A DNA stretch of 64,000 nt from assembly GCA_025766275.1 (NCBI GenBank), contig JAFKAC010000042.1, positions 372,001-436,000 on the forward strand, given 5' to 3'. The stretch's first letter is position 1. The number at the start of each line of letters is the position of its first letter. A model generated the notes under the pieces. The model did no database searches and was not told the DNA's origin. It saw only the letters and a list, made by a program, of their open reading frames with translations. Shown in pieces: positions 11,870 through 60,571 of the stretch. A program made the position numbers and the translations under genes. Origin of the DNA: Lactarius indigo. Taxonomy: Eukaryota > Basidiomycota > Agaricomycetes > Russulales > Russulaceae.

Positions 11870-11871
11870 TT

Positions 11872-11882
11872 AAGACCAAGAT
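11872..11882 (+). promoter_or_regulatory. Self-primer-binding site of element B
   Basis: AAGACCAAGAT starts two bases after the LTR end. It is identical to the 5' arm of the LTR hairpin and complementary to its 3' arm. It does not resemble a tRNA 3' end. The same site is present after the LTRs of elements C, I and H. Confidence 0.75.
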
Positions 11883-11890
11883 ATCCCACC

Positions 11891-28279: not shown

Positions 28280-28625
28280 TGTAACGTTTCGGGACTATTA
28301 CTGCACGACGCGAGTCTGACCCTTACTGTACCGGTTGCAACTACGGCGGTAAGGTAGATTAGTTGCGGACTTACTTACGGTGATACGGTAGTGCGATAGG
28401 CGATAGGGTGCGATAGCTGACTGATGACCAACGCCACTAGTACAGGTACTAGTAGTATTAGGGTTCGAGTTGTTTCTGCGATACGTTGGACGCTACTATA
28501 CTGTGACTCATAGCAGCGCTTCAAAGCCTGCTTGACTTGTATTTAAACTGTCTTGTGAAGACCAAGATACGCCATCTTGGTCTTCTTGAATCGTCACTTG
28601 ACTTCTCCTCTTCAGACTGCCTTTC

Positions 28626-28659
<34 letters not shown>

Positions 28660-28832
28660 TTTCTCTCTATCGACTTCGTCAATCGAGTATAAAGCCTTAG
28701 GTGTGCCTTTGCGCATTCACCAGAACTTGCGTCTTGGACCTTCGAGTCTTCAAGCTAGAATCCCAGAGACTATTGCTAAGTTGTTATCGCCGCATCGAGC
28801 TCAAGTCGAGCTAACATCGTGACGGCGTTACA
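28280..28832 (+). repeat. Element I 5' LTR
   Basis: TGTAACGTTTCGGG to GGCGTTACA, with TATTTAAA, hairpin 3' arm ATCTTGGTCTT at 28574-28584, then a long CT repeat. The partner is at 44664-45218. Confidence 0.9.
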
Positions 28833-28834
28833 TT

Positions 28835-28845
28835 AAGACCAAGAT
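28835..28845 (+). promoter_or_regulatory. Self-primer-binding site of element I
   Basis: AAGACCAAGAT two bases after the LTR, complementary to the LTR hairpin arm at 28574. Confidence 0.7.
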
Positions 28846-30008
28846 CATTCATCGTGGCCATAACAACAAGAGACCAGTGGACGAATTTCCGTCCTTATTC
28901 GCTCCCAAGAAGAGGAGAACATAACGTCCCCACGCACTTTTTGCAAGCTGCCAGTTGGAGGGACAGAGCAGAAGAAACCGGATATTTCGTAGAATTCAAC
29001 GGACCTGCTAGGTTCCGCCCAGTTGAGTTTAACTTCGACCACCTGTGTTGGGTAGAAGTTATGTGGAACCCCATAGATTCTCAGTGGGACGCCGTACGAC
29101 CAGCAGGACCTCAATACCGTTGTGATATCGACGCACGAGAGCTCAACAGTCGAGCTGATTGGGGCCCTACTGATGGGCAAGTAAGAGAACATTCCACCGG
29201 AGAAGTAGTATCGGAAGAAAGCGAACAAAGCCAAGAAGAAAGCGAAGACGGGCGAGAACCAAATCAAACGGAAACTAGCGGAGGAGCGATACAAGACCTC
29301 CTCCTTGAACGAGCTGAGTCCGCCCACATCACCGAACCAGAACCAATTCACATCCGATCACCAGCTATCATGGCAACACTTACACAGGCCATGGAAGAAG
29401 TAGCAATTGAAGAAGCACGCGCGATTCGAGCAGAGGCAAGAGACGTCCTCATGCCCATCAACCCAGAAACCGGCATACGAATGACCGCAGACGACGCTGT
29501 GATATATTGAGCGATCGGCTCGGATCGAGGAGATCCCCCCTCAGAACGACAACCTATACTAGAACTCCCCCCAGGAATAGGAGGACCTGACGGAGACCCA
29601 CCACCACCACCAGGAGGAGGAGTCCCGTTCGACTTATGAAGAACCGAACCTCCAAGAGGACCGCCCGCCGGACCACCCACCGGACCACCCGGCGGAGGAG
29701 GGGGAGGTACAGGGGGTGGAGGCGGCACAGGAGGGGGACATCACAATGAAAAGCTAACCGGCGAGCCCCCTTCTATTTTTGACGGCGACAGACTCAAAGT
29801 CGACCAGTTCTTAACACAGTGGCACGTCTACTGGGGCATGAACTTAGACGCCCCTATCATGCGCAACGATTACAGAAGATGTCTTCTGTTCCTATCCTAC
29901 ATCAAAGGCGGAGCAGTCAGCGAATGGGTCCTATCCTTCCTGAACTGGCTCAACAGGCAAATACAACGAGGGATTAGCCCCTACACCCATGACCTATGGG
30001 ACGCGGTA

Positions 30009-30972: not shown

Positions 30973-31431
30973 TGTTACGTTTCGACCCTTACTGTACTGG
31001 TTGCAGCTACGGCGGTAAGGTAGATTAGTTGCGGACTTACGATAGGCGATTACGGGTACGATAGGGGATTGCGCGCTGATTGCTGACTGAGGACTATGCC
31101 ACTAATACTAGTAGTAGTAGTATTAGGGTTCGAGCTACTTACGCGATACGTTGGACGCTACACTACTCTGACTCATAGCAGCGCTTGAAAGCCTGCTCGA
31201 CTTGTATTTAATCTGTCTTGTGAAGACCAAGATACGCCATCTTGGTCTTCTTGAATCGTCACTTGCTTCTCTCCCTCTCTCCGTCTCTCTCTTCTACCGT
31301 CTCTTTCGAGGAAGTGCACCTTCGAGTGTTCACCATTATCTACGCTTGGACCTTCGAGTCTTCAGAGCATCCGCTAAGTTGTTACCGCCTCCACCGAGCT
31401 CAAGTCGAGCTAACGTCGTGACGACGTTACA
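30973..31431 (+). repeat. Element C 5' LTR with TATA and primer hairpin
   Basis: TGTTACGTTTCGACC to GACGACGTTACA. TATTTAAT lies near 31205, hairpin 3' arm ATCTTGGTCTT at 31239-31249. It lacks the U5 duplication of element B. Confidence 0.93.
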
Positions 31432-31433
31432 TT

Positions 31434-31444
31434 AAGACCAAGAT
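31434..31444 (+). promoter_or_regulatory. Self-primer-binding site of element C
   Basis: AAGACCAAGAT two bases after the LTR, exact complement of 31239-31249. Confidence 0.75.
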
Positions 31445-31450
31445 ATCACC

Positions 31451-33526
31451 GTGGCCGTAACAACAAGAGATCAGTGGACGAGCTTCCGTCCGTATTCGCT
31501 CCCAAGAAGAGGAGAACGCAACGTCCCTACGCGCTTTCTACGAGCCGCTAGTTGGAGGGAAAGACAAGAAGAAACCGGATACTTTGTGGAGTTCAACGGA
31601 CCTAGTAGGTTCCGACCAGTTGAGTTCAACTTCGACCACTTGTGTTGGACGGAGGTTACGTGGAATCCCATAGATTCCCAGTGGGACGTCATACGACCAG
31701 CAGGACCTAGATACCGGTGCGACATCGACGCCCGAGAACTCAACAGCCGAGCAGATTGGGGCCCCATCGACGGGCAAGAACGAGAACACTCTTCTGGAGA
31801 AGTAATATCAGAAGAAGGAGAGGAACAAAGTCAGGACGAGAGTGAAGGACGAGAGCCAGATCAAACAGAAACCAGCGGAGGAGCGATACAAGATCTCCTC
31901 ATCGAACGAGCTGAGTCCGCACACATTACCGAACCAGAGCCAATTCACATCCGATCACCAGCCATTATGGCGACAATAACAAGAGCAATGGAAGAAGTCG
32001 CGATTGAAGAAGCGCACGCAATACGAGAAGAGGCACGAGAAGTCCTCATGCCTATCAACCCAGAAACCGGTGTACGAATGACTGCAGACGACGCAGCCAT
32101 CTTCCGAGCCATAGGGTCAGATCGAGGAGACCCCCCATCTGGACGACAACCCGCACTAGACCTCCCACCGGGAATAGGAGGACCGGACGGAGACCCTCCA
32201 CCGCCACCAGGGGGGGGTATCCCGTTCGATCTACGAAGGACCGAACCACCAAACATGCCACCCAGGGGACCGCCAGGAGGTGGAGGAGGTGATGGCGGCG
32301 GAGGAGGAGGTGGTGGAGATGCCGGAGGAGGAGGACATCATAACGAAAAACTAACCGGCGAGCCACCTTCCATTTTTGACGGAGACAGACTCAAAGTAGA
32401 CCAATTCCTAACGCAGTGGCATGTCTATTGGGGCATGAATTTGGACGCCCCTATCATGCGCAACGACTACAGAAGATGCCTTCTGTTTCTTTCTTATATC
32501 AAAGGCGGAGCAGTCAGCGAATGGGTCCTGTCCTTCCTGAACTGGCTCAACAGGCAGATACAACGGGGAATAAGTCCCTACACTCGCGACCTATGGAACG
32601 CCGTAGCCGATGGATTCAGCCAGAGGTTCGAAAACACGCTAGAAAGGGAACAAGCCCAAGCAATATTACGGAAGGGTTACAAAATGACGGGAGAGGACAT
32701 TGACAAGTACGTCAATGACTTCGAACAACTCGCACGGAAAGCTCACTACCGCCTCAATGAACCCCAAACCATCGACCTCTTTACGTCGGGTCTACCCAAG
32801 GAGCTGTTCAAGAACGCGTTTCAGTTCGACGACCCCGTCACGTTCGACGACTGGAAAAGAGCCGTCCTCAAGCGGCAGAAGAATTATATCCATCTCAAGG
32901 CGCGACTCAATGAATACAAAAATACGACGACGCAACCAAAGAAGCAGGGCGGCAATGCGGGATGGACACTCCCGCAGAACCTGCCACAAACCAACCCGTG
33001 GGCGATGGACACCTCGGCTGACCGTGCAAAGGTGCGGCTCGCAGGGTCCGAAGACATTGACTTCAACAAACTGCCACACCGCGACTGGCCCACGCCACCG
33101 TTCCCGCCAAGAGGAGGACCGGGAGCTAGAGGACGAGGGAGAGGAGGACCTCGAAGGGACTTAAGGAATGTCCTTTGCTATAACTGTCACGCCCCCGGCC
33201 ACCTCTCACGAAATTGCCCATACCCGCGTACGCAGCAACAGTGGCAGGCTGCCCCATCCAGCAGCCGCATGACCGAAACCACGAGGTATCCTCAAGGACC
33301 TGTCTCGCAGTACACGCCGCCCGTTTCGCAATACGCGCCGTCGCTGCCTGGGTATATGTCACCAGCGCCAAGCGTAACGCCCGCACCCCAAATCAACGCG
33401 GCAAGCACAAAAACGGCGGGAGAACAAGCCAAAGAATGGCTCACACAGGTGGCCAACAGTACAGATGAAGTGAAAGATCTTATACTTCAAGATCTATGGG
33501 GAAAAGAGGGTTTTCGGGACGCCTGA
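31451..33526 (+). CDS. Gag of element C, apparent GTG start
   Basis: 691 codons, closely similar to B Gag, with the same order: N-terminal domain, acidic region, Gly-rich hinge, capsid-like region and knuckle CYNCHAPGHLSRNC. It begins at GTG in ATCACCGTGG; the spacer from the primer-binding site is 6 bases against 8 in B, so the upstream bases are not coding in frame. No ATG occurs from the inferred transcript start (31239) to 31967, the first methionine codon of the frame. Most base differences from B in that stretch are silent, so it is translated and selected. Confidence 0.87.
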   Translation: MAVTTRDQWTSFRPYSLPRRGERNVPTRFLRAASWRERQEETGYFVEFNGPSRFRPVEFNFDHLCWTEVTWNPIDSQWDVIRPAGPRYRCDIDARELNSRADWGPIDGQEREHSSGEVISEEGEEQSQDESEGREPDQTETSGGAIQDLLIERAESAHITEPEPIHIRSPAIMATITRAMEEVAIEEAHAIREEAREVLMPINPETGVRMTADDAAIFRAIGSDRGDPPSGRQPALDLPPGIGGPDGDPPPPPGGGIPFDLRRTEPPNMPPRGPPGGGGGDGGGGGGGGDAGGGGHHNEKLTGEPPSIFDGDRLKVDQFLTQWHVYWGMNLDAPIMRNDYRRCLLFLSYIKGGAVSEWVLSFLNWLNRQIQRGISPYTRDLWNAVADGFSQRFENTLEREQAQAILRKGYKMTGEDIDKYVNDFEQLARKAHYRLNEPQTIDLFTSGLPKELFKNAFQFDDPVTFDDWKRAVLKRQKNYIHLKARLNEYKNTTTQPKKQGGNAGWTLPQNLPQTNPWAMDTSADRAKVRLAGSEDIDFNKLPHRDWPTPPFPPRGGPGARGRGRGGPRRDLRNVLCYNCHAPGHLSRNCPYPRTQQQWQAAPSSSRMTETTRYPQGPVSQYTPPVSQYAPSLPGYMSPAPSVTPAPQINAASTKTAGEQAKEWLTQVANSTDEVKDLILQDLWGKEGFRDA

Positions 33527-46669: not shown

Positions 46670-47818
46670 TCACCGAAAGTCGCGAGCCGGCCAGTCGCGC
46701 TGCTCGTTGGCAATACGCTCCAATGCGGTGGCGCGCTCCAAACGGTAGATGGCGTCGTGTCGGTCGTCCTGCGCACACTCGATCATGGTGCGGAGTTGAC
46801 TCACCCTCGCCCGGAGTCGATCCAGCTCATAGCTGGCCGCGCGGAAGCACGTAACCTCCGCAGTGAGTGACTCATCGTTGATACGATTGAGCGCGCGGTC
46901 GGTGATCTTGTCCGCTTCGAAGACGACAAGGTCCTCGTGCGGGTACGTGGGGCGGAGCGCGGCGGATACGTGGGGCTCGGCGTAAAAGGGCTTACCATAG
47001 ACGTGCGGCGAGCCCGGTATAACTCCTAGTATGAGGGGGTCCGCCCCCCCGATAATCTGGACGTGCGACGCGTCCCTCTCTACTCCGTCTGGCCCGGTGA
47101 TGGGGTATCGAATGTAATGGGGTCGTCGGTTCGCCCGGAACCCTTCAGGCGCAATGACATGCGCGGGGTCCTCGGCGGCGGTGAACGGATGGTGATCGGC
47201 GGCACCAGGCACCCGCACACGTCCTCGATACATGGGGGACCCGTCGGAGTGGACGAGCCAGGGCGTGATGAGGGGATTATCAGGGTCGTGTTTCGTTCGA
47301 AGGAAGGGGTGTCTCGCCGGGTAATAATCTTCGTCGTCATGGCCAGCCTCAGCTGCCGCCATTGCTGCCGTCGCTTGCGCATCTCCCTCAGTCGGGCCGC
47401 TGCCGAGTCCAACTGCTCCTTCTGCCATGCTGCTGCTACCCTCTTCCAGCCCTCCAACTCATACTCCATCAGCGCTTGAACGCTGGTTGTTGCTCGGGAA
47501 AACTCCGCGAACGCCAATGAGGTCGTCGCTTGGGGGGATAGCGGCGATGGGTTCACGCTCGCCGCGATCGTTTTGGAAGACGTGGACGATGGCTCGGTCG
47601 TCGTCGGGGGTAGTCGTTGGGTCTGGGAATCTAGTGACGACGTTGATCCATTCTTGTGCGGTAATGGGCCCCTCTGCTGGTGTAAGAGGCGTCCATGGTG
47701 TGAGCTGAGTGTTGGGAACTTTGGTGTCGTCGTCCTCAGCCAAGAGGGCGCAGGCGTCTTCTGCGAGGGAGTCGAGGAGCTGCGCTTGTGTGACATGTCG
47801 TAGTGGAGAAGTGGGCAT
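46670..47818 (-). pseudogene. ORF3 of element E
   Basis: ATG at 47818 in frame with pol. The front part ends at TGA 47459-47461 after QRSSADGV. The rest, in the same phase, ends at 46670 with the helical tail RLRARVSQLRTMIECAQDDR. The +1 frame between reads MEYELEGWKRVAAAWQKEQ. The layout is as in element I. Confidence 0.62.
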
Positions 47819-50450
47819 GAGAGTGATGGTTGAACGAAGGAAGAGGGGATGACTGTCCTCTGTCTGGGCGACTCCCACTTTATCTCTTCTATCGTGGGTC
47901 TGTGTTTCCTGATACAGGCGGAGCACTTCCGGCGCAAAGACGTCATCCTTGTTGACCCACTGGTTCTCCGAGTCTGGGTACCCCTTCCACTTGACAAGAT
48001 ATTGGAGGCGTCTTCCTCTGCCGAAATGCCGAGTGTCTAGAATGGCCTCGACCTCGTACTCCTCTTCTCCATCTATCAATTCAGGCGGTGGTTGTGTGAA
48101 GTTCTCCCCGTGTAAGGAAGTTTGTTTGTACGGGGTGAGAAGATCGATGTGAAACACTGGGTGGATGCTCCACTGCGTGGGAAGTTCCAATCGATAATTG
48201 TAAGGGGACATCACCTGTGTCACCCGAAAGGGTCCATGGCGTCGCGCCGCTAATTTCGCTGTAGGCTGGTTGGTTCGAAGATGTTTGCCCTCGAGCCACA
48301 CGAGGTCGTTGATGCTGAACTTGGGCGTATCTTTGTTGCGTACCCATGACTCTTGGGCCTTCTTTATAAGGCGTTGGGCGTTGTCTCTAGCTTCTTTTAG
48401 TTGTGTCAGTCGCGCGGTTGCGAGGGGAATGGGGGATGGCTTATCCGTCCAATCCGCTTGCGGGTTGTACCCCATCAGAAGTTGGAACGGCGACTCCTTG
48501 GTGTGTTCATGTGGCCAGTTGTTGTGTGCAAATTCGGCGATTGGCAGATAAGCTGCCCAGTTGTCTTGCCGCTCATTTACCCAGAAGCGTAGGTACTGTT
48601 CCAGCCACTGGTTAGTTCATTCGGACTGCCCATCAGTACGCGGATGATATGCGGTTGATATGTTCTGTTGAATTCCCAGAATGCGGCATACTTCTCTGGT
48701 AAACTTGGACGTGAAGCGGGGATCGCGGTCGCTTATTATCTTGCGCGGCAGCCCAAAGCGTTTGAACACCTGGGCGACATACAGAGTCACCACTTCTTCT
48801 GCGGTGATCTCTTCTCGGCATGGGATAAACACGGAGGCCTTGCTGCAGTCGTGATCCGTGACAGTTAGTATGCTGTCGTGCCCCCTAGAAACGGGGAGTT
48901 TGGTGATGAAGTCTACCGCCACGGTGTGGAACGGCATGGCTTCCAGTATTGGCGTGATGGGATGCAGCGCGGCCTGTATGGGCCTCGTGTTGACTTTATT
49001 TCTTTGGCATTCTGCGCAGCCTTGCACGTATTCATATACGTCTCTTCGGAGCCGCGGCCACCAGTAGTGTCTTTCCAGGATGCGTTGAGTTTTCGCAATC
49101 CCCGGGTGGCCATGTATGGGCAAGTCGTGATGGTCATGTATCAGTACACGTTGAGTCGACGTGGGCCCTGTGATTATGAACCTGCCGTCTTTATACCATT
49201 CTCCTTGTATTTTCTTGAGGTGATGAGGGTCAGCCCATATTTCGATCACCTTCTCGTCCTGCTGGTGACGCGGTTGCAGTAGATTTGGGTTCGCGATGAA
49301 GGTGCGCGCGACGTTAAGGGCCCGTACAAAAACTTCAGGAGGTAGGACCACTACTTCGCTATTGTCTTTGACTCCCTGGTCGTAGTCCGGTCGTCGCGAC
49401 AGGGCATCTGCTCTTCCATTGTTCTTTCCCTTAATGTGATGAATCTCAAAGTCATATTCGGAAAGTTCGAGTACTTCCCTAGCAACTCGTCTGCTGATCT
49501 TCTGCGGTGACTTCCAATATTGTAGGTTTAGGTGGTCCGAATAGATTTTGATCTTGTGGGGGGCACCTGCGAGAAGTGGCCGCCAGTTCCGTAGGGCCTT
49601 AACTATTGCGAGTAGTTCTAGGTCATAGATGTCGTAGTTTCTTTCTGCTTCAGAAAGTGTCGCCGAGTAGTAACCTATGGGGTGTCGCTTGCCGTCAGAT
49701 TTCTTTTGTAGTAAGACGGCTCCCACCACGTAGCCCGAAGCGTCAACTTCCAACTCAAACGGATCCTGAAGGACGGGGTGTGCTAGCACCGGTTCCTCCG
49801 TTACGAGACGTTTTAGAGTGTTGAACGCCTTATCTTCTTCTTCAGTCCACTGCCATTCTTCGTCCTTTCGTGTCAGTTTAGTGAGTGGCTTGGCGTGAGT
49901 TGCAAAACCGCAGATAAAAAGTCTGTAAAAGTTACAGAATCTGAGGAAAGAGCGGACATCTTTGACTTTTGTTGGCGTCAGCCAGTCCTTGATTCCTTGG
50001 ACTTTTACAGGGTCCATTCGGGTCACCCCCCTCTCAAGGATTACCCCCAGGTAATCCATCCGCGGTTGATGGAACAGGCATTTCTCGAGCTTGAAGTAGA
50101 GGTCGTGCTCCTCCGCGACGTGTAGCACATCGCGAACGGCGTTTACGTGGGCCGCTAAATCGTGATCAAAGTGAGTGGCGATACCAATGTCGTCCATGTA
50201 GACGCGTATGGTAGTGCCCAGCCGTTCGTGTTTCGCGATTGTGTCGCGATAGATGTGGTTCATCATGGCCTGGAAGGTGGCGGGGGAGTTTGTGAGTCCG
50301 AAGAACATAACCGTGGGCTCGAAGAGGCCAAATTTAGTTTTGAACGCCGCTTTCTCCTGATCGCCATTGCGAATACGTATGTTGTTGTATCCCCATCGAA
50401 TGTCGAGTTTCGTGTAGATATGGGCGTTGCTGAGGTCAAGGATAAGGTCC
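47459..50450 (-). pseudogene. Element E pol: RT to chromodomain, fused to ORF3
   Basis: Starts inside RT at LILDLSNAH and has YMDDIGIAT, RNase H, integrase (GHPGIAKTQRIL; VDFITKLPVSRGHDS; SDRDPRF; YHPRTDGQSE) and chromodomain (LVKWKGYPDSENQW). One TGA (48617-48619) replaces the arginine codon of SERTNQW. The frame runs on into ORF3. Confidence 0.9.
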
Positions 50451-50909
50451 TGTCACGAACCTATAAACTGGGTCGTGACTCAAGGCGCTTAGGACCGGAC
50501 CGGACCGGACCGGGCTTAGGTCATCAACTTCCTAAAGGGGAAATCCGAAATCGGAGTTTGAATTTCGCTCTCCGACGGTCACGTGATGTGTCACGTGATT
50601 ACTCTGTCTTTCCAAGTCACATGCATACCTACCTGCACGTGTATCAATCAACGGTTGATCGTTTATCAATCAACGAAGATAATCACCCAAGTCACCACCC
50701 CTCGGGGATTCCCGCATTGACTGCGGAATCACGCCATTCTGATGCAAGATTGCACCATCAACTGCGGCGCAGTTGTTCTATGTTTAAACCCCTTCCGATT
50801 GGACTCTATTGTTAGATGTCTCTAGAATGTTCCTTTGCGCAGTACTGCGCAGCACCCGTGGGCAGGCCCTAAGCCTGCCCTAAACCGACGCACAGACCAC
50901 CCCCTGTAG

Positions 50910-50954
50910 TATATAAGCTGGTGCAATTCTACGGACAGTCCCTCAGACTGTCCA
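50910..50954 (+). promoter_or_regulatory. Core promoter and self-primer hairpin of element F
   Basis: TATATAA (50910-50916) is followed by GGACAGTC (50933-50940), loop CCTCA and GACTGTCC (50946-50953). The segment AGACTGTCCA (50945-50954) is complementary to TGGACAGTCT at 51140-51149 and lies 35 bases from the TATA box. I infer transcript start and self-priming as in Tf1. Stem, five-base loop and spacing parallel element B although the sequences are unrelated. Confidence 0.65.
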
Positions 50955-51110
50955 CTTGTGACATCTTCCCCTCTTGCCTCTCAGCTCCTTCGAGTGCCCC
51001 ACCTTGTGTGCGCCACTACCTTCTTTGAGCCAAGAACGCCTCCTCTTCGTCATCTTCGACGCTCTCTCCGTCTCTACTTCGCCCGCCGTCGTCTTCAACC
51101 GTATCCCTCG

Positions 51111-51124
51111 CTGTCGAGTGACAG
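51111..51124 (+). promoter_or_regulatory. C-GAGT-G hairpin before ORF1
   Basis: CTGTC-GAGT-GACAG, a 5-bp stem with GAGT loop. A GTG overlapping the last stem base (51124-51126) is in frame with ORF1. The old LTR copy at 9702-10044 has the same stem with loop AAGT. Confidence 0.5.
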
Positions 51125-52440
51125 TGAGTTCGCCACACTTGGACAGTCTCTTTAAAAGACTGACCTCGGGCTTCCCAGTGACTGACTACACCTACGAGTA
51201 CGACTTCTCGCAGTACGGTCAGTGGGACGGAGACTCTGCCAGCTACCAGTCGGAGTTCGACAACCAAGGTAGCCCCCTTGACTTCTCCCGCGCCTCCCCT
51301 GTCCCCTCCACCTCTGCTGTCCGCCTCGACAGCCTTCGCTTTACCGCCCCCTACACCCCCGCCACCTTCGGAGGTAACGAGCCTCCCGCCCCTGTTGCCC
51401 TTGTTCGGGACACAACCCCCGAACTAGTTTACCCCTACGCTCCGGCTGAAGAAGCCACCCCTCGCCCATCCCCTCGTCCTTTGTCCCCCAGCACCGCCCA
51501 GTTCTACGAAGAGGTCCTCGAGATCATCGACCTCAACGGGAACGTCGTCCCCTTGACCCCCGAACCCCGCGCCGAGTCTGCGCCTCCCCTCCGAGTCCCG
51601 ACCCCCCGTCCCCCTATTTCCCTTCGTGGCTCTCCTTCGCCACCTCCTGTTCTTCCTCCGACTCCTCGCCACTCTCCGTCTCCTTTTCCGGTCCCCTCCC
51701 GCCTTGCAACCCCCGACTCGCCGATTGACTACGAGCGAGTAGCAGAACAAGGCCCCGTCTTCCCTCCGGCCCCTCACCCCGAACAGGAGAACCTCCCTCC
51801 CCTCGGCCCCACCGCCTACCAAGCCCCCCCTTGCCTCCTTTCCCAAGGAGAACACCCCCACCAGTACATCTCCGTCGTCACCCCCCAAGGAGAATCTTGG
51901 CGGCCCGCTTCCACGACCCTCCGGGAACTAATCAGTAAAGTTCCCCTCGCCACCTCACTCGCTAATTTCCCCCCGGTCTTCCCTTCTGTTACCCCCTTCC
52001 GTCTTCTTCCCCCTCACGTCTACACCCTTTTCCCGCGCATTGTTGACCCCGCCCAACACCCCGACTTCCCGCCCTTGTACATCTGTTCCAAGGCCATCTA
52101 CGACCTTCCCTCCCCTGACACCCCCCTCGGGACTATCCGCTACGACTTCAGGGAAGGCCTGAGACGTGCTTTCACCCCCCTTGCTAATATCCACAGGGCA
52201 GGGTACATTGACTCTCTAGTAACCCTAGAGATCCAGGACTTCTTGGACGGGAGGATTGTGACCACTTACGGACACTTACGTTTTTCTTTTGACGGACTAA
52301 TTTACGCTCACCAGCAGGCTTACTTCTTTGAGGACTTGGTTCGTTCCGCCCCCCACCTTCTTGCTTATTGTTTTTCGCCTCGTATTCCTGCCGACCCCTT
52401 TAGTTTCATTTCCACCTTTCCCGACAACCAGCCACTTTAG
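51124..52440 (+). CDS. Element F ORF1, 438 codons without ATG, unknown function
   Basis: Open frame ending TAG at 52438-52440, with no ATG in any position. I place the start at the GTG at 51124; the frame is open further into the LTR, so the true start is uncertain. The N-terminal half is rich in Pro and Ser (for example PTPRPPISLRGSPSPPPVL). The rest looks globular: FPPVFPSVTPFRLLPPHVYT, LFPRIVDPAQHPDFPPLY, GYIDSLVTLEIQDFLDGRIV, LRFSFDGLIYAHQQAYFFED. No known domain is recognised. A DSPIDYERV motif within the Pro-rich part recalls TPIDYDRPD in ORF3 of element A, so the two may be related accessory proteins in different positions. Confidence 0.65.
   Translation: MSSPHLDSLFKRLTSGFPVTDYTYEYDFSQYGQWDGDSASYQSEFDNQGSPLDFSRASPVPSTSAVRLDSLRFTAPYTPATFGGNEPPAPVALVRDTTPELVYPYAPAEEATPRPSPRPLSPSTAQFYEEVLEIIDLNGNVVPLTPEPRAESAPPLRVPTPRPPISLRGSPSPPPVLPPTPRHSPSPFPVPSRLATPDSPIDYERVAEQGPVFPPAPHPEQENLPPLGPTAYQAPPCLLSQGEHPHQYISVVTPQGESWRPASTTLRELISKVPLATSLANFPPVFPSVTPFRLLPPHVYTLFPRIVDPAQHPDFPPLYICSKAIYDLPSPDTPLGTIRYDFREGLRRAFTPLANIHRAGYIDSLVTLEIQDFLDGRIVTTYGHLRFSFDGLIYAHQQAYFFEDLVRSAPHLLAYCFSPRIPADPFSFISTFPDNQPL
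51140..51149 (+). promoter_or_regulatory. Self-primer-binding site of element F
   Basis: TGGACAGTCT begins three bases after the LTR end. It is complementary over ten bases to the inferred 5' end of the RNA. Confidence 0.65.
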
Positions 52441-52549
52441 ATAAGTGGTTATATATTTGCCTTGTCTTGAAACGAGTGTTTTAAGTGCAACGCAAAGTAA
52501 GTAAGTGTTTACTTATTTGGGTTTTGGACTTAAATCGAGTGATTTAAGT
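52432..52549 (+). promoter_or_regulatory. Intercistronic hairpin array between ORF1 and ORF2
   Basis: Three clear hairpins: CCACTT-TAGAT-AAGTGG (52432-52448), whose loop starts with the ORF1 stop; CTTGAAAC-GAGT-GTTTTAAG (52466-52485, one G-T pair); and ACTTAAATC-GAGT-GATTTAAGT (52528-52549, perfect 9-bp stem). Each ends in AAGTG, giving a GTG at 52445, 52485 and 52548. The GTG at 52485 opens 20 codons ending TAA at 52545-52547, directly before the GTG of ORF2. Confidence 0.6.
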
Positions 52550-53531
52550 GCCTCCTTCTACTCCGTTTACCTTCAACTTATCTGAAGAACAGAGGCTCGC
52601 ACGAGCCCGAGTTAACTTCGAGTCCCACAGGCAGCGGCAACTTGACCGCTATTACCCCGTCACTTCCACTTACGACCTCATCGACAACCCCCGCCTTGAC
52701 TGTTGGACAGAACCCCCTACCGCCTTACGTACCCTTATCGACCTCTTTGACTTTGGAGAAGTCATCCCTGAAAGGGCTTATCACGAGTTTATTGACGATC
52801 TTTCTGAAGTCGTCAAGGCTGCCGACGAACAACTCCTTTACTGGCACCTTTCGAACTCCGTCTCCGCCACCAACCACCCAACAGATCAACTCCTAGTGTG
52901 GACCAAGAGCGACTATCTTTGGTTTGTCCACGTTCCCCCTCGTCGTGACCACTATATCTGGCAATTGGAAGACGGTTTCTCTCTTCATTTTGTTGACCGA
53001 CTCCGCCTCACATATCAGGAAATACAAATTTCCTTCCAAGAAATCCAAGCGATCATTCACCCCGACTCTGCCCCCCGTCTAGTCATCTCTGATAGTTCAG
53101 AGTTTACTTACTCCTTCGCCACCTCTACGTGGGAAACTACCCTGTCCAATCCCGACCGAAACCTTGTAAACCCAAGTATCTGGCACTACCCCCCTTCTAC
53201 CTCTGATGACCCAGAGTTAGTCTCGATTCTCAACGCTAGAGAAACTTTCCGAACTCCGCCCTTGCTCCGCCGAATTACAGATCGGCTACCCCCTAGTTCC
53301 CCTGAAACTGAAGACGAATCTTCAGACTCCGACATCTCCCTACATAACGGAGACACTAACCAACCGCCTAGCCCTAACGACGGTTGGGGACCAACTCTGA
53401 CCTCAGGCCCCTGTTGGTGCTCTCAAGAAGTCTGCACCTGCGGTTATCGTCCCGACACCCCCCCGACACCCCCCAACGTAGTGTTGTGGTCCCCTGGAGT
53501 TAACTATCTACCTTATAGAGAAAAGGACTAG
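52548..53531 (+). CDS. Element F ORF2, 327 codons without ATG, unknown function
   Basis: The frame opens immediately after TAA 52545-52547 with GTG CCT CCT, so GTG is the first possible codon. It has no methionine codon. Features: LSEEQRLARARVNFESHRQR, QLLVWTKSDYLWFVHVPPRR, LRLTYQEIQISFQEIQAII, a Pro/Ser/acidic stretch and a late Cys cluster CWCSQEVCTCGY. I recognise no family. The only ATG in the surrounding 3.3 kb, at 53206, is out of frame and reads four codons before TAG. Expression would need non-AUG initiation or reinitiation after ORF1. Confidence 0.65.
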   Translation: MPPSTPFTFNLSEEQRLARARVNFESHRQRQLDRYYPVTSTYDLIDNPRLDCWTEPPTALRTLIDLFDFGEVIPERAYHEFIDDLSEVVKAADEQLLYWHLSNSVSATNHPTDQLLVWTKSDYLWFVHVPPRRDHYIWQLEDGFSLHFVDRLRLTYQEIQISFQEIQAIIHPDSAPRLVISDSSEFTYSFATSTWETTLSNPDRNLVNPSIWHYPPSTSDDPELVSILNARETFRTPPLLRRITDRLPPSSPETEDESSDSDISLHNGDTNQPPSPNDGWGPTLTSGPCWCSQEVCTCGYRPDTPPTPPNVVLWSPGVNYLPYREKD

Positions 53532-53540
53532 ATAGTATAG

Positions 53541-53579
53541 ATTGTCAAAATAAATTTTACGAGTGTAAAATTTGACAAT
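53541..53579 (+). promoter_or_regulatory. C-GAGT-G hairpin before ORF3 of element F
   Basis: A left arm TAAATTTTAC closes on loop GAGT (53561-53564) with GTAAAATTTG. ATTGT and ACAAT extend the stem past a five-base bulge, about 15 pairs in all. The ORF3 frame opens within the right arm. Confidence 0.55.
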
Positions 53580-54264
53580 TTTCAAAGCCAAAACCCTGGA
53601 TCCAATTCATTGGGCAATTAACCTGGCATCTTCACACGTCGCCCAAAGAAGAACTCATCGTCACTTCCAAGTGGACGATCGGCCAATAGCCTCTACCCCT
53701 AGTACCCCTGTTACCCCAAGAAGGGCCCCCAGAGCTCGTCGAGCTACCAACACCCAGATTCCCCTCCCGAGTATTAACCAAGCCGATCCCAGTGAACCAG
53801 TGTACCCTAGTATCCAAGCAACTCCGACTGCAAGACAGCATTCCACAAGCAGCGACGAAGCTCAGTATCTCGAAACCCAGCCCCGAGAAATCCATTGTCA
53901 CCTCCCCGAAGCTATCTTAGTAACCAAGAGCCTACCAACCCGAACCCCCCGAGAACTCGACGTGTTCAGAAGACACTGTTCTCTGTTGTACCAAAACCGG
54001 CACAATCTTGAAACCCTGTATTTTTCCCAGCCACTTACGCGTATAAGCGAGATTTCGACAAACCCCTTGTATTTTCAAGACTTCTTGTGGAGAAGTAAGA
54101 CAACCCTGACCCACTTTGGTATTTGGGAAGAATACCATTGGATCCGTCGTTCACAAAGACCCCACCGTCCGGATAGAGCTATCCTCCTCCCTGCGTACAA
54201 AGTCTACTACCCCTGGAACCTGGACAGTTGGACTGTCACCCGTCTCACCAGAAGAGGTGAATGA
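53572..54264 (+). CDS. Element F ORF3, up to 230 codons without ATG, unknown function
   Basis: The frame opens after TAA 53566-53568 and ends TGA 54262-54264. Start candidates are TTG 53572, ATT or CTG; none is ATG. The first third is basic and Ser/Pro/Thr-rich (RRAPRARRATNTQIPLPSIN), the second compact (FRRHCSLLYQNRHNLETLYF, PLYFQDFLWRSKTTLTHFGI, LLPAYKVYYPWNLDSWTVTR). No known family is recognised. The stop overlaps the gag ATG as ATGA (54261-54264), an arrangement used for termination-reinitiation in compact RNA genomes. Confidence 0.6.
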   Translation: MTIFKAKTLDPIHWAINLASSHVAQRRTHRHFQVDDRPIASTPSTPVTPRRAPRARRATNTQIPLPSINQADPSEPVYPSIQATPTARQHSTSSDEAQYLETQPREIHCHLPEAILVTKSLPTRTPRELDVFRRHCSLLYQNRHNLETLYFSQPLTRISEISTNPLYFQDFLWRSKTTLTHFGIWEEYHWIRRSQRPHRPDRAILLPAYKVYYPWNLDSWTVTRLTRRGE

Positions 54265-55811
54265 ACACGCAACGACCGCTCACAGACGAAGAAAAAGCCA
54301 ACATTCCAGTATACTTCTTCGACCCCTACTTTTCCCTTACCGACAATCTTTACTACGCCAAGTGGAAGGAAGAGGAGATATCCAGTCCTACAGGAAAACA
54401 CCCGTGGACAATAGTCGCTACCCAACACCAAATCGTTTTTCAAGACCTAAAAGAAGCCTTTCCTGGTATCGACAAAGTCCAGGACCTAAGTTACAATTCC
54501 CTACACGCCACTTTCAAAGGAAAGAACGTTCGTTGGAACTTTGTGAACGAGCAGTGGATCTACCTAAACAATAAACCGGTCCACTTCAATACACCTAGTG
54601 AATCTGACGATTCGAAAAGTGATACGGAAGAAGTATCACAAATCCTAGACACTACCACCAAAAAACTCTCTGGTCTGCTATCCCAAGTAACCTCCCGACC
54701 CTCGACACCCCAGATTTCCCCTAGTACCTCCGGCCCTAGTCGTTTCCCTGCAACAGTTCCCCCACATCGACTCCCATCACCACCCCTAACTGTTCAAGCC
54801 TCTTCCTCAGTACCCCCTTTATCCATCCTCCCTGTACCCACCGCAATGGCAGCACCTGCACCGGCGAAAATCTTAGGCGCAGCGCCTGAGCCCTTCGACG
54901 GCAAACCCAACCATGCTGAGGCCTTTTGGAACAACCTGGCCAATTACTTCCATCTAAATCAGGATATCTTTAACTCTGACGACAAAAAGGTATCCACTGC
55001 CCTTACCTATTTCAAGGTTGGGACCCCAGCAGGAGAATGGGCTCAAGACAGGCAAAAGAAAGCCTTAAACCCAACCGGTGGTGCAGCAATTAGCTTCGGC
55101 ACCTGGGCACAGTTCAAAACCGACTTCGATGCACACTTTGTTCCTGGTCACACTGCCATGGAATCCACGAACAAAATGTACTCTCTAAAGATGGGGACCC
55201 GACCTTTCAACGAATGGTTCCAAGAATGGTCGACCCATGCTACGCGAAGTGGTGCAAACGAGCAGACCAAGATGTACGCTTTCCGACAAGCTATCCCAAC
55301 GGCTCTAAACATGAAGCTGCTCGGCATATCCCCTATCCCTACCACCTTCGACACCCTTGTTGAGAAAGCAAGAGAATTCGATCGCGCCTATCGAATTTAC
55401 GCTGGTCACGCCATTAACCAGTTTAACAAAACCCATAAGCCCACCACAGGACGAGCCGTCCTAGCAGAGGACGATAGCGTTAATGTCAACGCTTCCTCAT
55501 CTCGTACTACCAAACCAAGGAACAAACTTACCAAGGAAGAGCGAGAGTATCGCTTCAAGAATAAACTCTGCCTATACTGTGGCAGGCCAGGCCACGTACT
55601 TAAAGAATGTCACGCCAAGACGGCAGCCATGAAGGCCAAAGGAGGCCAATCCAACAACAACGCTAGGGCGCGCGGCGCCTTTGTTGATGAACCAAGTCAG
55701 GAAGAAGAACCTGCTGACCACCCAGCAAACATAGGAGCGATATATCGAGAGATACTCCCTTTTGACCCGGATGCACGTCCGCGTTCGGTGCCTATTAATG
55801 AGGATTTTTAG
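54261..55811 (+). CDS. Gag of element F
   Basis: 516 codons from ATG 54261. The N-terminal part (NIPVYFFDPYFSLTDNLYYA) is followed by a Ser/Pro linker, a capsid-like region (PEPFDGKPNHAEAFWNNLAN; FKTDFDAHFVPGHTAMESTN; FNEWFQEWSTHATRSGANEQ) and the zinc knuckle CLYCGRPGHVLKEC. It stops at TAG 55809. This is the first gene of the element with an ATG start and the first usable ATG after the inferred transcript start. Pol is in the -1 frame. Confidence 0.88.
   Translation: MNTQRPLTDEEKANIPVYFFDPYFSLTDNLYYAKWKEEEISSPTGKHPWTIVATQHQIVFQDLKEAFPGIDKVQDLSYNSLHATFKGKNVRWNFVNEQWIYLNNKPVHFNTPSESDDSKSDTEEVSQILDTTTKKLSGLLSQVTSRPSTPQISPSTSGPSRFPATVPPHRLPSPPLTVQASSSVPPLSILPVPTAMAAPAPAKILGAAPEPFDGKPNHAEAFWNNLANYFHLNQDIFNSDDKKVSTALTYFKVGTPAGEWAQDRQKKALNPTGGAAISFGTWAQFKTDFDAHFVPGHTAMESTNKMYSLKMGTRPFNEWFQEWSTHATRSGANEQTKMYAFRQAIPTALNMKLLGISPIPTTFDTLVEKAREFDRAYRIYAGHAINQFNKTHKPTTGRAVLAEDDSVNVNASSSRTTKPRNKLTKEEREYRFKNKLCLYCGRPGHVLKECHAKTAAMKAKGGQSNNNARARGAFVDEPSQEEEPADHPANIGAIYREILPFDPDARPRSVPINEDF
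55802..55811 (+). promoter_or_regulatory. Gag-pol frame change in element F
   Basis: The pol frame is blocked by TGA at 55799-55801 and the gag frame by TAG at 55809-55811, so any shift must occur within GGATTTTTAG. No canonical heptamer fits. One more T in the run of five (55805-55809) would place gag and pol in one frame, as in Tf1. Either slippage or a one-base loss is possible. Confidence 0.5.
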
Positions 55812-58800
55812 GCTCTTCCATCGTAGCACTGTCGATTGGAAGTATTCGTGCCAGTAGCGTTGTACACGGCCTTTCCCTACTAGAGACGTTCGGAGCCGAG
55901 CATGTACCTGCAGAAACAATTCGGAATAGGAGAGCTCCTTCAATTGTTCTCAGAGTTACACTAGTAGGAAAGAAGTCTGGCAAAGAAATCAGTGCCCGTG
56001 CCCTGTTGGACAGTGGCGCGGAGGGCATCATCGTGGATGATGGGTTTGCGCGTGCAAACAACCTAACAATGAGGACACTAATTAAACCCTTACCAGTTAG
56101 AAACGTGGACGGGTCTCCCAACAAGACGGGATCTGTTAGGTATACTACGATCCAGAGGCTACGGATCAGAACTTCTGATAACGACTACCACGACGAAACC
56201 GTGGAGCTCTATGCAACTACTCTAGGGGAGCACGATATAATCTTAGGAACAGATTGGCTCCAAGCACATAACCCTGAAATCGACTGGCACCAACCAAAAA
56301 TAGCCTTCACACGATGCCCAAGAACCTGTACCCTGTCCTCCTCAGCGGTCGTCATTTCTTCAAAGACACCACAAACACGACACACAACTATTAACATCCT
56401 GGAACTTGACCCTGACCAAGAAACCTGTCTCCCCGTGGAAAACGAAATTGAACCCCTGGAACCCACCTTTATCCAAGATGCCTGCGAACCCTGGCTGTGG
56501 ATCCACAGCTTTAGCAAGTATGACCACCTTGCCATCCGAGCAAAGATAACTACAAGCACCAAGATAGCAGCACGCACTGCACCTAAGCCTTCCACCGACC
56601 ACATTCCGAGCCACTTCCAACGATATACTAAAGTATTCAGCGAAATCGCGTCTCACCGACTACCCCAACATCAGCCCTGGGATCACGCAATTGACCTCAA
56701 ACCAGGAGCCACTATGAAGAATTGTGGCATCTATCGACTTACGCCAAAGGAATCCGATGCCCTCAAGGAATACATCTCGGAACACCTAAAGAAAGGTTAC
56801 ATTCGACCATCTAAGTCACCCATGGCCTCCCCCTTTTTCTTTGTCGATAAAAAGGATGGCAAACTCCGACCTGTACAAGACTACCGTGCCCTCAATGATA
56901 TAACCATTAAGAACGCAGCCCCCCTTCCCCTTATCCCTGAACTTATCGACAAACTCCACGGTGCGCGCTACTTTACCAAGCTAGATATTCGTTGGGGATA
57001 CAACAATATCCGTATCCGAGAAGGCGATGAGTACAAGGCAGCCTTCAAAACATCCTTAGGACTCTTTGAACCCACAGTAATGACTTTCGGCCTTTGCAAC
57101 GCCCCTGCCACCTTCCAGACATTTATGAACCAGATCTTTGAGTCCTTGATCGATGGTGGACATGTTGTAGTCTACCTCGACGACATCTTGATCTTCACAG
57201 AAGATGCCTCCTCACTCACAGCATTGACGCACGACGTGCTTCAACGACTGGAGCGCCACGATCTCTACCTAAAACCTGAAAAATGTACATTTGCACAAAC
57301 TTCCGTCGAATACCTCGGAATCGTCATTTCCGATGGCCAAGTTTCTATGGACCCTGCAAAAGTTGCAGGTATTACTCAATGGCCCACTCCACGCACTGTT
57401 AAACAAGTGCAGGCTTTCCTAGGCTTTTGCAATTTCTATCGACGCTTCATTAAAGACTACTCCACCATTGCCCGCCCATTGTTCGACCTAACCAAGAAAA
57501 ACGTCCCCTTTTCTTGGGATACCGCAGCGGAAACCGCTTTCCGCACCCTGATTAAATGTTTCACCGAAGCTCCTGTCCTCGCCCTGCCTGACCATTCCAA
57601 GCCTTTCCGTCTCATCACCGACGCAAGCGATTTTGCTACCGGTGCCATTCTTGAACAACCGGATGCCTTGCAACGATGGCACCCCGTCGCTTTCCTTTCC
57701 AAATCCCTCCTTCCTGCCGAACGTCACTACGAAATCTGTGACAAGGAACTTCTTGCCATCATCCATGCCTTGCATGCCTTCCGCCACTACCTGGAAGGAC
57801 GGGATGACGTTACTGAAATCTGGTCTGACCATGGCAACCTTGTCTATTTTACCACAAAGCAGAAACTTTCCCGCCGACAAGCCCGTTGGGCCCTGTTCCT
57901 CTCTCGCTTCCAGTTCATCATCATCCACAAACCTGGTGTTCAGAACAAGTCTGATGCACTGTCCCGGCGTCCAGACCATAAAAAGGGGATAGCGGATGAA
58001 GATGAAAAACGAGTGCTCCTGGACACAAAATTTTTCTCGGTTAATGCAGTACAAAGAACTGCAGTTACCATTCACGGTGATAATACTCTTCGACAACGCA
58101 TCCGAAACACACACACCTATGACAAAGAAGTCAGCACAGCCTTAGAAACCCTCTTGAAGAATGGCCCCCGTTCCTTAACCAAGGGGCTAGAAGAGTGGAA
58201 TCTAGAAGATGGCGTCATCTTATTCCGAGGACAAATCTACATACCCAAAGACGACAACTTACGAAGAGACATCGTAACTCAGTATCACGACCACATCGCT
58301 ACAGGACATCCAGGGCGATGGAAGACTTATGAACTCCTTTCCCGAGACTTTTGGTGGCCAGGGATGTCAACGTTTGTCAAAGAATACGTCGATGGATGTG
58401 CCACCTGCCAGTCTACGAAAATTAAACCACGAACCCAAGTACCCCTGCAACCCAATGCTATTCCTGAAGAAATCTGGGGAACCATCACAATGGACTTCAT
58501 CACCGACCTCCCCTCCTCCCACAACTACGACTCGTTGTTCGTAGTCGTTGACCGACTCAGTAAAGCAGTAGTCATTTCCCCGTGTAACAAGACCATCACA
58601 GCAGACGAAACTGCTCAACTTTACCTGGAAAATGTCTGGAGACGTACTGGTCTACCCCGACAAGTCATTTCTGACAGAGGCCCTCAATTTGCATCAAAAG
58701 TAATGCAAGAAATCTGGAATAAATTAGGAGTCAAATCTACCCTGTCCACGGCTTTCCATCCGCAAACAGATGGAGAAACCGAACGCGTAAATCAAGAACT

Positions 58801-59572
58801 CGAGCAGTACCTCCGCGTCTTCTGTAACTTCCAACAAGACAACTGGGTAGACCTAGTCCCGTTCATGGAATTCGCACACAACGCACGACAGCACAGTGCA
58901 ACTCACAAGTCACCCTTTGAAGTGTGGTATGGGTACAACCCGGAGTTCATTCCCCCCATCCACTTCAATAGCAAGATACCCGCAGCCGAGGAAAGACTAG
59001 ACGCATTGAACCGAATTCGCTCTGAAGTCACTGCAGCCCTCAAAGTCGCTGCAGAAGTAATGAGAAATTCCAAGTCAATCACGACCCCCCCGCGTGTTCA
59101 ACGAAGGCGATCTAGTCTGGCTGGAAGGGACTAATATCCACACTACCCACCCCAAAGCTAAACTCGCCCCCCGCCGCCATGGTCCTTTTAAAGTCCTATC
59201 CTCCTGGGGAGTTAACTGCAAACTCCAACTCCCAAGGCATGGCGAATCCACCCAGTCTTCCATAATTCCTTGATCTCCCCATACAAAGAAAACACCACGC
59301 ACGGCCCTAACTTCACCCGACCACCCCCCGAAATTGTCCAAGGGGAAGACGAACACTATGAAGTCGAAAGGGTCCTGCAGTCAAAGGTATCGCCCAACAA
59401 GAAAGGCATACTTTACTTGATCAAATGGAAGGGGTACCCCGACTCTGAAAACTCCTGGCTCCCCTCCTCCCAAATGACCCATGCGCAAGACCTTGTTAGT
59501 CAATTTCACAAGGCCAACCCCGGTGCCCCTAAACCAAAGTCAACTAGTGCTAGTGGAATAGCACGACGTTAA
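55802..59572 (+). CDS. Pol of element F with two further frame breaks
   Basis: Protease LLDSGAEGIIVDD (D codon 56009), then GTDWLQAHNPEIDW; RT with LDIRWGYNNIRI and YLDD (57173-57184); RNase H (ITDASDFATGAILEQ, WSDHGNLVYF); integrase zinc finger (GHPGRWKTYELL...CATCQSTK) and core (MDFITDLPSSHNYDS, SDRGPQF, DGETERVNQELEQ); chromodomain (YEVERVLQSKV...LIKWKGYPDSENSW). The main frame stops at 59132-59134. FNEGDLVWLEGTNIHTTHPK continues in another frame after the C run at 59085-59091, and AWRIHPVFHNSLISPY in a third after CCAAGG at 59232-59237. Both breaks are single-base changes at homopolymers, so a sequencing or assembly origin is possible. Confidence 0.88.
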
Positions 59573-59583
59573 AAAGGGGATAC

Positions 59584-60271
59584 TGTCACGAACCTATAAA
59601 CTGGGTCGTGACTCAAGGCGCTTAGGACCGGACCGGACCGGACCGGGCTTATGTCATCAACTTCCTAAAGGGGAAATCCGAAATCGGAGTTTGAATTTCG
59701 CTCTCCGACGGTCACGTGATGTGTCACGTGATTACTCTGTCTTCCAAGTCACATGCATACCTACCTGCACGAGTATCAATCAACGGTTGATCGTTTATCA
59801 ATCAACGAAGATAATCACCCAAGTCACCACCCCTCGGGGATTCCCGCATTGACTGCGGAATCACGCCATTCTGATGCAAGATTGCACCATCAACTGCGGC
59901 GCAGTTGTTCTATGTTTAAACCCCTTCCGATTGGACTCTATTGTTAGATGTCTCTAGAATGTTCCTTTGCGCAGTACTGCGCAGCACCCGTGGGCAGGCC
60001 CTAAGTCTGCCCTAAACCGACGCACAGACCACCCCCTGTAGTATATAAGCTGGTGCAATTCTACGGACAGTCCCTCAGACTGTCCACTTGTGACATCTTC
60101 CCCTCTTGCCTCTCAGCTCCTTCGAGTGCCCCACCTTGTGTGTGCGCCACTACCTTCTTTGAGCCAAGAACGCCTCCTCTTCGTCCTCTTCGACGCTCTC
60201 TCCGTCTCTACTCCGCCCGCCGTCGTCTTCAACCGTATCCCTCGCTGTCGAGTGACAGTGAGTTCGCCACA
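59584..60271 (+). repeat. Element F 3' LTR
   Basis: 688 bases, starting after AAAAAGGGGATAC, a purine-rich tract. About seven differences from the 5' LTR, including GTGTGTG vs GTGTG and one T less in CTTCC. Confidence 0.92.
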
Positions 60272-60480
60272 GTCGTGGTCGTGGTTGCGATCGTGGTCGT
60301 GGTCGTGGTCGCCGTCGCCGTGGTGGTCGCTGTGGTGGTCGTGGTCGCCGTGGTGGTCGCGGTTGCGCGGTGGTGGTCGTGGTGGTCGTGGTGGTGGTTG
60401 CGGTTGCGGTCGTGGTCGTGGTCGTAGTCGTGGTCGTGGTCGTAGTCGTGGTCGTGGTCGTAGTCGTGGTCGTGGTCGTA

Positions 60481-60515
<35 letters not shown>

Positions 60516-60516
60516 A

Positions 60517-60557
<41 letters not shown>

Positions 60558-60571
60558 GGTCGCGGTCGTCG
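60272..60571 (+). repeat. GTCGTG microsatellite
   Basis: About 300 bases of GTCGTG with variants (GTAGTC, GCGGTC), starting at the first base after the F LTR. It keeps frames open on both strands, reading Val runs, RGRS repeats, RPRPR or HDHD. I do not regard any as genes. Confidence 0.9.

Follow-up and report, generated by a model that had tools for sequence, protein, structure and literature searches.

A Ty3/gypsy chromovirus lies in the 64-kb stretch of the Lactarius indigo genome analyzed here (contig JAFKAC010000042.1, positions 372,001 to 436,000; hereafter the window), with gag, protease, reverse transcriptase, RNase H, and integrase in order between its long terminal repeats (LTRs). 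Between the inferred RNA 5' end and gag, the element is almost free of ATG over 3.3 kb, and this interval holds three long open reading frames (ORFs), ORF1, ORF2, and ORF3. We consider it highly probable that the genomic RNA is AUG-poor as far as gag, that three conserved proteins are encoded upstream of gag, and that the start codons of ORF1 and ORF2 are assembled by splicing, the A that ends one exon being joined to the UG that begins the next (A|UG). The features on which this argument depends are as follows.

50910-50916, + strand: TATA box, TATATAA, within the 5' LTR and upstream of the inferred RNA start
50945..50954, + strand: inferred 5' terminus of the transcript, AGACTGTCCA, which is the reverse complement of the primer-binding site (PBS)
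51140..51149, + strand: predicted self-priming PBS, just inside the element and within predicted intron 1
50962-52440, + strand: open frame 1, 492 codons stop to stop in the window copy, 420 conserved
51124..51178, + strand: predicted intron 1, 55 nucleotides (nt), A|GTGAGT...CTGAC...CCCAG|TG, containing the PBS
51179..52440, + strand: ORF1, 420 codons, predicted AUG formed by A51123 and TG51179-51180
52548-53531, + strand: open frame 2, 327 codons
52497..52548, + strand: predicted intron 2, 52 nt, A|GTAAGT...TTTAAG|TG; a second donor at 52501 would give 48 nt
52549..53531, + strand: ORF2, 327 codons, predicted AUG formed by A52496 (or A52500) and TG52549-52550
53569-54264, + strand: open frame 3, 231 codons
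53596..54264, + strand: ORF3, 222 codons from a conserved CUG, its stop overlapping the gag AUG (ATGA)
54261..55811, + strand: gag, Pfam Retrotrans_gag, first AUG in weak context

Absence of ATG before gag and constraint on ORF1, ORF2 and ORF3

The original prediction, an earlier reading of the same stretch, had described the interval 50945-54263 as an ATG desert, and our count bears this out because the interval has only two ATGs, one that starts gag (54261) and one at 53206. As had been said, the latter begins an out-of-frame run of just four codons; it is absent from all 20 of the other type-A copies described below and from 8 other copies that match the pattern at this site. CAT, which had been put at about two dozen, occurs 24 times. 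The earlier estimate of roughly 50 ATG expected by chance was too high, the expectation being 32 from base composition and 18 from a first-order Markov model, and the deficit is still extreme. Across the whole window, CAT is never missing for more than 495 nt, and the longest gap without ATG, at 50827-53206, measures 2,379 nt; the ATG-free stretch runs on beyond the weak gag AUG, up to 54846. The three long frames that were said to cover the interval do cover it, at the measured lengths listed above.

The RNA 5' end is likely to be near 50945 because the TATA box precedes AGACTGTCCA, which is the reverse complement of the PBS, TGGACAGTCT, and a 5' transcript end complementary to the PBS is the arrangement of self-priming elements. 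Chromoviruses of the Tf1/sushi type prime themselves from a PBS that immediately follows the LTR and is complementary to the RNA 5' end, and they carry a chromodomain. Here the PBS at 51140-51149 is complementary to the predicted RNA 5' end at 50945-50954, as expected if the element primes itself in this manner. Of five type-B copies, four (L058, L059, L061, and L051, not L060) have the complement pair GACTGTCCA/TGGACAGTC. These anchors, found also in type B, favor a transcript start at the upstream end of the interval and not the later start that, as noted with the original prediction, would leave the interval out of the RNA.

The same genome contains at least 83 matches to gag and at least 123 to ORF2, fragments included, and the copies split into type A and type B, between which ORF2 is about 49-56% identical. 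We examined 20 type-A copies, 11 type-B copies, which are mostly decayed or rearranged, and two more diverged copies resembling type A. From the transcript start to gag, 12 of the 20 type-A copies have no ATG, seven have one, and one has two. Among type-B copies, the intact L058 and L059 have none before gag, L061 has two, and L051 has four, while the decayed L052 to L057 have 11-65 (rough counts for L053 and L054, which are poorly aligned). In L060 the 5' part is foreign and contains ATGs; from position 1059 of this copy onward to gag there are none. The portion of L063 that was examined has 16. ATG is thus avoided in most copies whose frames are intact and reappears in dead ones; L062 is the exception. 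The relatives within the genome whose frames are intact thus have little or no ATG, and not the normal ATG content that would have spoken against the desert.

When codons were shuffled synonymously within each ORF in 18 copies, the mean number of off-frame ATGs was 7.5-10.4, compared with 0-1 observed, and in each of the 18 copies none of 500 shuffles reached the observed number. The deficit of off-frame CAT in the same shuffles was significant at P ≤ 0.05 in only two of the 18, the window copy and L031. Methionine is encoded by none of the 969 codons of ORF1-3, where 11.3 would be expected from gag and pol. The absence of ATG is selected, largely strand-specific, and kept in relatives; the earlier claim that it is specific to the strand and not due to composition stands with the word largely added.

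The ORF1, ORF2, and ORF3 sequences are protein-coding and under strong purifying selection. The ratios of nonsynonymous to synonymous substitution rates (dN/dS, Nei-Gojobori) within type A are 0.10 for ORF1, 0.05 for ORF2, and 0.04 for ORF3, so that the range, 0.04-0.10, is far below the value near 1 that had been named as the outcome contrary to the original prediction. Between type A and type B they are 0.16, 0.21, and 0.07, the A-B dS being near saturation (1.9 for ORF2 and 2.2 for ORF3). The ratios come from 21 of 26 rows for ORF1, all 26 for ORF2, and 23 of 26 for ORF3; rows lacking one open frame that spans 93% of the reference were dropped (L031, L032, L039, L060, and L051 for ORF1; L042, L061, and L051 for ORF3). 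A Pfam search with each of the three proteins returned no family at E ≤ 1.

ORF2 residues 11-200 have a high-confidence predicted structure with no clear match to a solved fold. Near its C-terminus, at residues about 289-322 (53412-53513 in the window), four invariant cysteines followed by RP-x-TPPTP are present in 15 of 15 aligned sequences, the cysteine spacing in the window copy being C-x-C-x4-C-x-C. A separate observation is that type-A and type-B copies that are about 55% identical in ORF2 can be about 95% identical in gag, and some type-A leaders stand before a gag of 72-82% identity. Because ORF2 and gag of the same copies differ so much in identity, it seems that parts of the element have been reshuffled by recombination.

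Start sites and predicted introns

The starts of the three ORFs are marked by conserved triplets. At ORF1 this is a GTG (51178), immediately upstream of which indels break the frame, and at ORF2 it is a GTG (52548) that 25 of 26 rows share and that directly follows an in-frame stop. In the rows examined both GTGs are in poor Kozak context, position -3 being C or T. At ORF3 the triplet is CTG (53596), found in all 23 rows and flanked in every one of them by A at -3 and G at +4, and here too indels lie just upstream. The original prediction had all three proteins made from non-AUG starts. That part of it stands for ORF3, for which CUG is the best reading and which is the only ORF for which we still favor a non-AUG start. 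It does not stand for ORF1 and ORF2, where the poor-context GTG sits on a predicted 3' splice site that would give A|UG.

At both of these starts the first G of the GTG is the G before the bar in an AG|TG acceptor, which lies downstream of a strong A|GTRAGT donor by the length of one fungal intron. Excision of either predicted intron would give A|UG in frame with the ORF that follows. The strict pattern for intron 1, ACA|GTGAGT...CTGAC...YCAG|TG with 55-56 nt, is present in 27 of 32 copies, the acceptor in these 27 being CAG. Beyond this strict set, intron 1 can be read in L057 (in a relaxed alignment and with one loop change), L062, and L063; L052 has the acceptor half only, and L053, L054, and L060 gave no match. 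The strict pattern for intron 2, A|GTAAGT...AAG|TG with 47-53 nt, is present in 26 of 32 copies, and when relaxed readings are included the donor GTAAGT is found in 33 of 34 (not in L052) and the acceptor AAG|TGCC in 34 of 34. The combination is specific, because of the 525 AG|TG sites that the two strands of the window contain, only two are preceded by A|GTRAGT at a distance of 45-60 nt, and these are the starts of ORF1 and ORF2; a single further site, at 22864, is added if the exon-terminal A is not required. Three actin introns of the host genome are 50, 56, and 51 nt long with the donors GTAGGT, GTGGGT, and GTGAGC. The ORF1 and ORF2 starts thus have what is expected of spliceosomal introns, namely, a conserved GT donor, an AG acceptor, and a host-like length.

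If the two introns are removed as predicted, the element would operate as follows. On unspliced RNA, ribosomes would scan 3.3 kb without encountering an AUG; a part of them would begin ORF3 at the CUG, whose context is optimal, and the rest would reach gag. Excision of intron 1 would join ...GACA to TG..., which would make the ORF1 AUG the first, and it would also delete the PBS and leave the ORF1 mRNA unusable as a genome. Excision of intron 2 alone would bring the ORF2 AUG first because the upstream ORF1 has no AUG. Partial intron retention would then split one transcript among four reading frames and, therefore, every upstream ORF would have to stay AUG-free, as is observed.

The ATGA at the mapped gag start is found in 26 of 27 loci (not in L054); the pattern was not found in L061 either. 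The first gag AUG is in weak context, with T at -3 and A at +4, in 21 of 21 type-A sequences, and an in-frame gag AUG 585 nt downstream, at 54846, is in the context GCAATGG in 19 of the 21. Since the first AUG is weak and the AUG at 54846 is in optimal context, long and short forms of Gag may both be made.

Relatives, hairpins and alternative explanations

Protein searches listed 98 relatives of ORF1, taken from the best 7,995 candidates scored, 24 of ORF2, and 7 of ORF3, one protein being in two lists. They occur in Lactarius species and in metagenomes at 29-65% protein identity, which suggests that three accessory proteins without a known family are widespread in fungal retrotransposons. Search listings assigned 32 of the proteins to Lactarius. 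Among the relatives outside Lactarius that exceed the length cut-offs, an internal methionine is absent from 13 of 14 for ORF2, 45 of 60 for ORF1, and 6 of 6 for ORF3. In 15 of the 32 Lactarius proteins we found SDMSDY, which is the translation expected across the intron 1 junction (U5 ...AGT GAC A|TG...), and in 5 of the 32 we found NATMPP, the predicted ORF2 junction. Four of 97 ORF1 relatives translate through the PBS stretch, with the residues TWTV. In three of these, P0029, P0049, and P0077, 18 codons precede the ORF1 start, so that an intron starting with the first base of these codons would be 55 nt long, and in P0078 there are 17 codons from the nearest V-S, which would correspond to 52 nt; these lengths assume that the donor is a GTN codon shortly upstream of the PBS stretch.

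Several observations count against start codons made by splicing or against the avoidance of AUG that accompanies it. L062 has open ORF2 and ORF3 frames, yet it has 10 ATGs before gag. Off-frame CAT is also slightly low, being below the shuffle mean in 18 of 18 copies, and 15 of the 60 non-Lactarius ORF1 relatives do contain an internal methionine. The Lactarius models are gene predictions that possibly rest on no RNA, and four of them (P0006, P0009, P0034, and P0042) place the ORF2 splice differently. The metagenome proteins that start with M and not V follow the source database and have no evidential value. The acceptor of intron 2 is AAG, not YAG, in the copies examined. A pattern search of the genomic copies found none without intron 1 or intron 2, even though RNA from which intron 2 had been spliced could have given rise to such copies. 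Splicing supplies no AUG for ORF3, which therefore continues to need a non-AUG start. Finally, start codons made by splicing leave the hairpins at the ORF boundaries unexplained. These hairpins are listed below.

51107-51128, + strand: LTR-end hairpin, C-GAGT-G loop
52466..52485, + strand: hairpin b, CTTGAAAC-GAGT-GTTTTAAG, between ORF1 and ORF2, with a change from G-U to A-U between lineages
52528..52549, + strand: hairpin d, C-GAGT-G loop, its 3' arm carrying the intron 2 acceptor
53551..53574, + strand: hairpin 3, TAAATTTTAC-GAGT-GTAAAATTTG, before ORF3, type A

Every perfect stem of at least 8 bp with a GAGT loop on the + strand of the window falls in this element, the sites being near the LTR end (in both LTR copies), two in the spacer between ORF1 and ORF2, and one before ORF3. 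The four boundary hairpins have the C-GAGT-G loop in common and different stems of 8-10 bp. Hairpins b and d still pair in type B, d having two pairs changed on both sides, as judged by inspection with type B permitted one bulged base; hairpin 3 was not found in the type-B copies examined. Packaging and splicing control are possibilities for their role.

It could be argued that splicing is real and that the U5 donor at 51123 is joined straight to the ORF2 acceptor at 52548, skipping ORF1 in the manner of retroviruses, in which one donor serves several acceptors. The U5 donor is a good one, and any donor with an exon-terminal A would yield A|UG at 52549. However, ORF2 has in nearly all copies its own GTAAGT donor with an exon-terminal A 47-53 nt before its acceptor, the skipping intron would be 1.4 kb compared with 50-56 nt for the three host actin introns, and the AUG-free ORF1 would then serve gag only. 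We regard this explanation as unlikely.

Quite unlikely, in our judgment, is the explanation given with the original prediction, in which ORF1, ORF2, and ORF3 begin at near-cognate GUG, GUG, and CUG on unspliced RNA, with leaky scanning bringing ribosomes to gag. The conserved GTG at ORF1 and ORF2 and CTG at ORF3 would fit it, and rice tungro bacilliform virus (RTBV) is known to use leaky scanning across AUG-free ORFs (PMC5902531). A second Ty3/gypsy family in the window would also fit it. This family (11366-12404, 28424-29061, and 31096-31967, with gag frames at 11852, 28815, and 31436) likewise has few ATGs in its leaders, and a GTG in the context ACCGTGG or ATCGTGG is conserved, with frame-breaking indels just upstream, the next gag AUG being at 12404; it is likely, judging from this pattern, that its Gag is N-extended and GUG-started. 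In ORF1 and ORF2, however, the base at -3 of the GUG is C or T in the rows examined, and near-cognate initiation does not account for the signals shared by the two starts (a GTRAGT donor preceded by an exon-terminal A, and AG ahead of the TG) or for the junctions in the Lactarius models.

Another explanation is that the downstream ORFs are reached by termination and reinitiation or by internal entry, guided by the GAGU-loop hairpins and the ATGA overlap. The hairpins do stand at the ORF boundaries, two of them vary between lineages with pairing kept, and the ATGA is nearly constant at gag. This explanation, however, gives no reason for an AUG-free ORF1 or for the avoidance of AUG in all frames, and hairpin 3 is not in the type-B copies examined, so that we think it very improbable. 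It is hardly credible that the desert arises incidentally from base composition or from the proteins encoded there because, although the region is C-rich and CAT is slightly low too, shuffles that preserve protein and codon usage never match the observed ATG, the CAT deficit is significant in so few copies, and decayed copies regain ATG.

Splicing that assembles the ORF1 and ORF2 start codons therefore remains the explanation that we prefer. It is also probable that this assembly is a gene switch in which 3.3 kb are AUG-free, each intron removal builds the only upstream AUG, and the PBS lies in intron 1, and that the design is common to a large fungal family so far known as unnamed proteins. 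If this is true, it would be a simple solution to the problem of one transcript serving as genome, gag-pol message, and accessory-protein message. The element shows methionine-free proteins that a constraint on RNA maintains as such, and this could be a reason for gene finders to miss or mis-start such genes.

Remaining features and comparison with known systems

The remainder of the element and its surroundings are as follows.

50450..51138, + strand: 5' LTR, TGTCACG...CGCCACA, direct repeat with 59583-60271 at 98-99% identity in pieces
55802..59134, + strand: pol, with protease, reverse transcriptase, RNase H, and integrase (Pfam)
59330..59533, + strand: chromodomain at the C-terminus of pol (Pfam Chromo PF00385, E 5.4e-15)
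59583..60271, + strand: 3' LTR, partner of the 5' LTR in the direct repeat

The pol frame of the window copy closes early; frames of about 1254-1257 codons hold most of 42 scored matches. The gag zinc-knuckle Pfam scores are below the curated cut-offs. A GTCGTG-type microsatellite adjoins the 3' LTR (60272-60570), and no clear target-site duplication was seen. The upstream neighbor (47080-50452, - strand) looks like a part of pol that was truncated at the 5' LTR.

In Tf1 there is only one ORF and no gene precedes gag, in contrast to the three found here, and plant Ogre elements have an ORF before gag. The Caulimoviridae have no LTRs and no integrase, and membership of the element in this family was rejected because it has both. 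The glycoGag of murine leukemia virus starts at a CUG before gag, as we propose for ORF3, and in the spliced env and accessory mRNAs of retroviruses splicing opens frames that are closed on the genomic RNA. Retroviral leaders are, to our knowledge, not kept AUG-free over kilobases for such a purpose, and no element is known to us in which an AUG-free leader occurs together with start codons made by splicing. Searches of the open-licence literature showed no AUG-free pre-gag ORFs or splice-made start codons in a retrotransposon; they may be in print elsewhere.

Some fungal gypsy elements have an additional ORF of undescribed function beside gag and pol (PMC2864245), and the portion of that account available to us mentions no AUG-free design or split start codons. 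The account of RTBV and badnaviruses (PMC5902531) describes ORFs I and II from which AUG is kept out so that leaky scanning can occur; in RTBV this stretch measures about 900 nt. The element resembles them in that long upstream ORFs without internal AUG would let scanning reach the main polyprotein. RTBV uses a near-cognate start for an upstream ORF, and RTBV and badnaviruses have consecutive ORFs, some with fused stop and start codons (PMC5902531); the same arrangement is seen or proposed here. The differences are that the AUG-free stretch of the element is 3.3 kb, compared with about 900 nt in RTBV, and that splice-made start codons, which we predict for the element, are not mentioned for those viruses in the passages of that account examined. 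In the copia element BARE1, removal of a 104-nt intron truncates Gag-Pol to Gag, and alternative splicing divides the RNA between protein and genome roles (PMC3735527), as it would in the element described here. Unlike in BARE1, removal of the introns in this element would create the start codons of separate upstream proteins.

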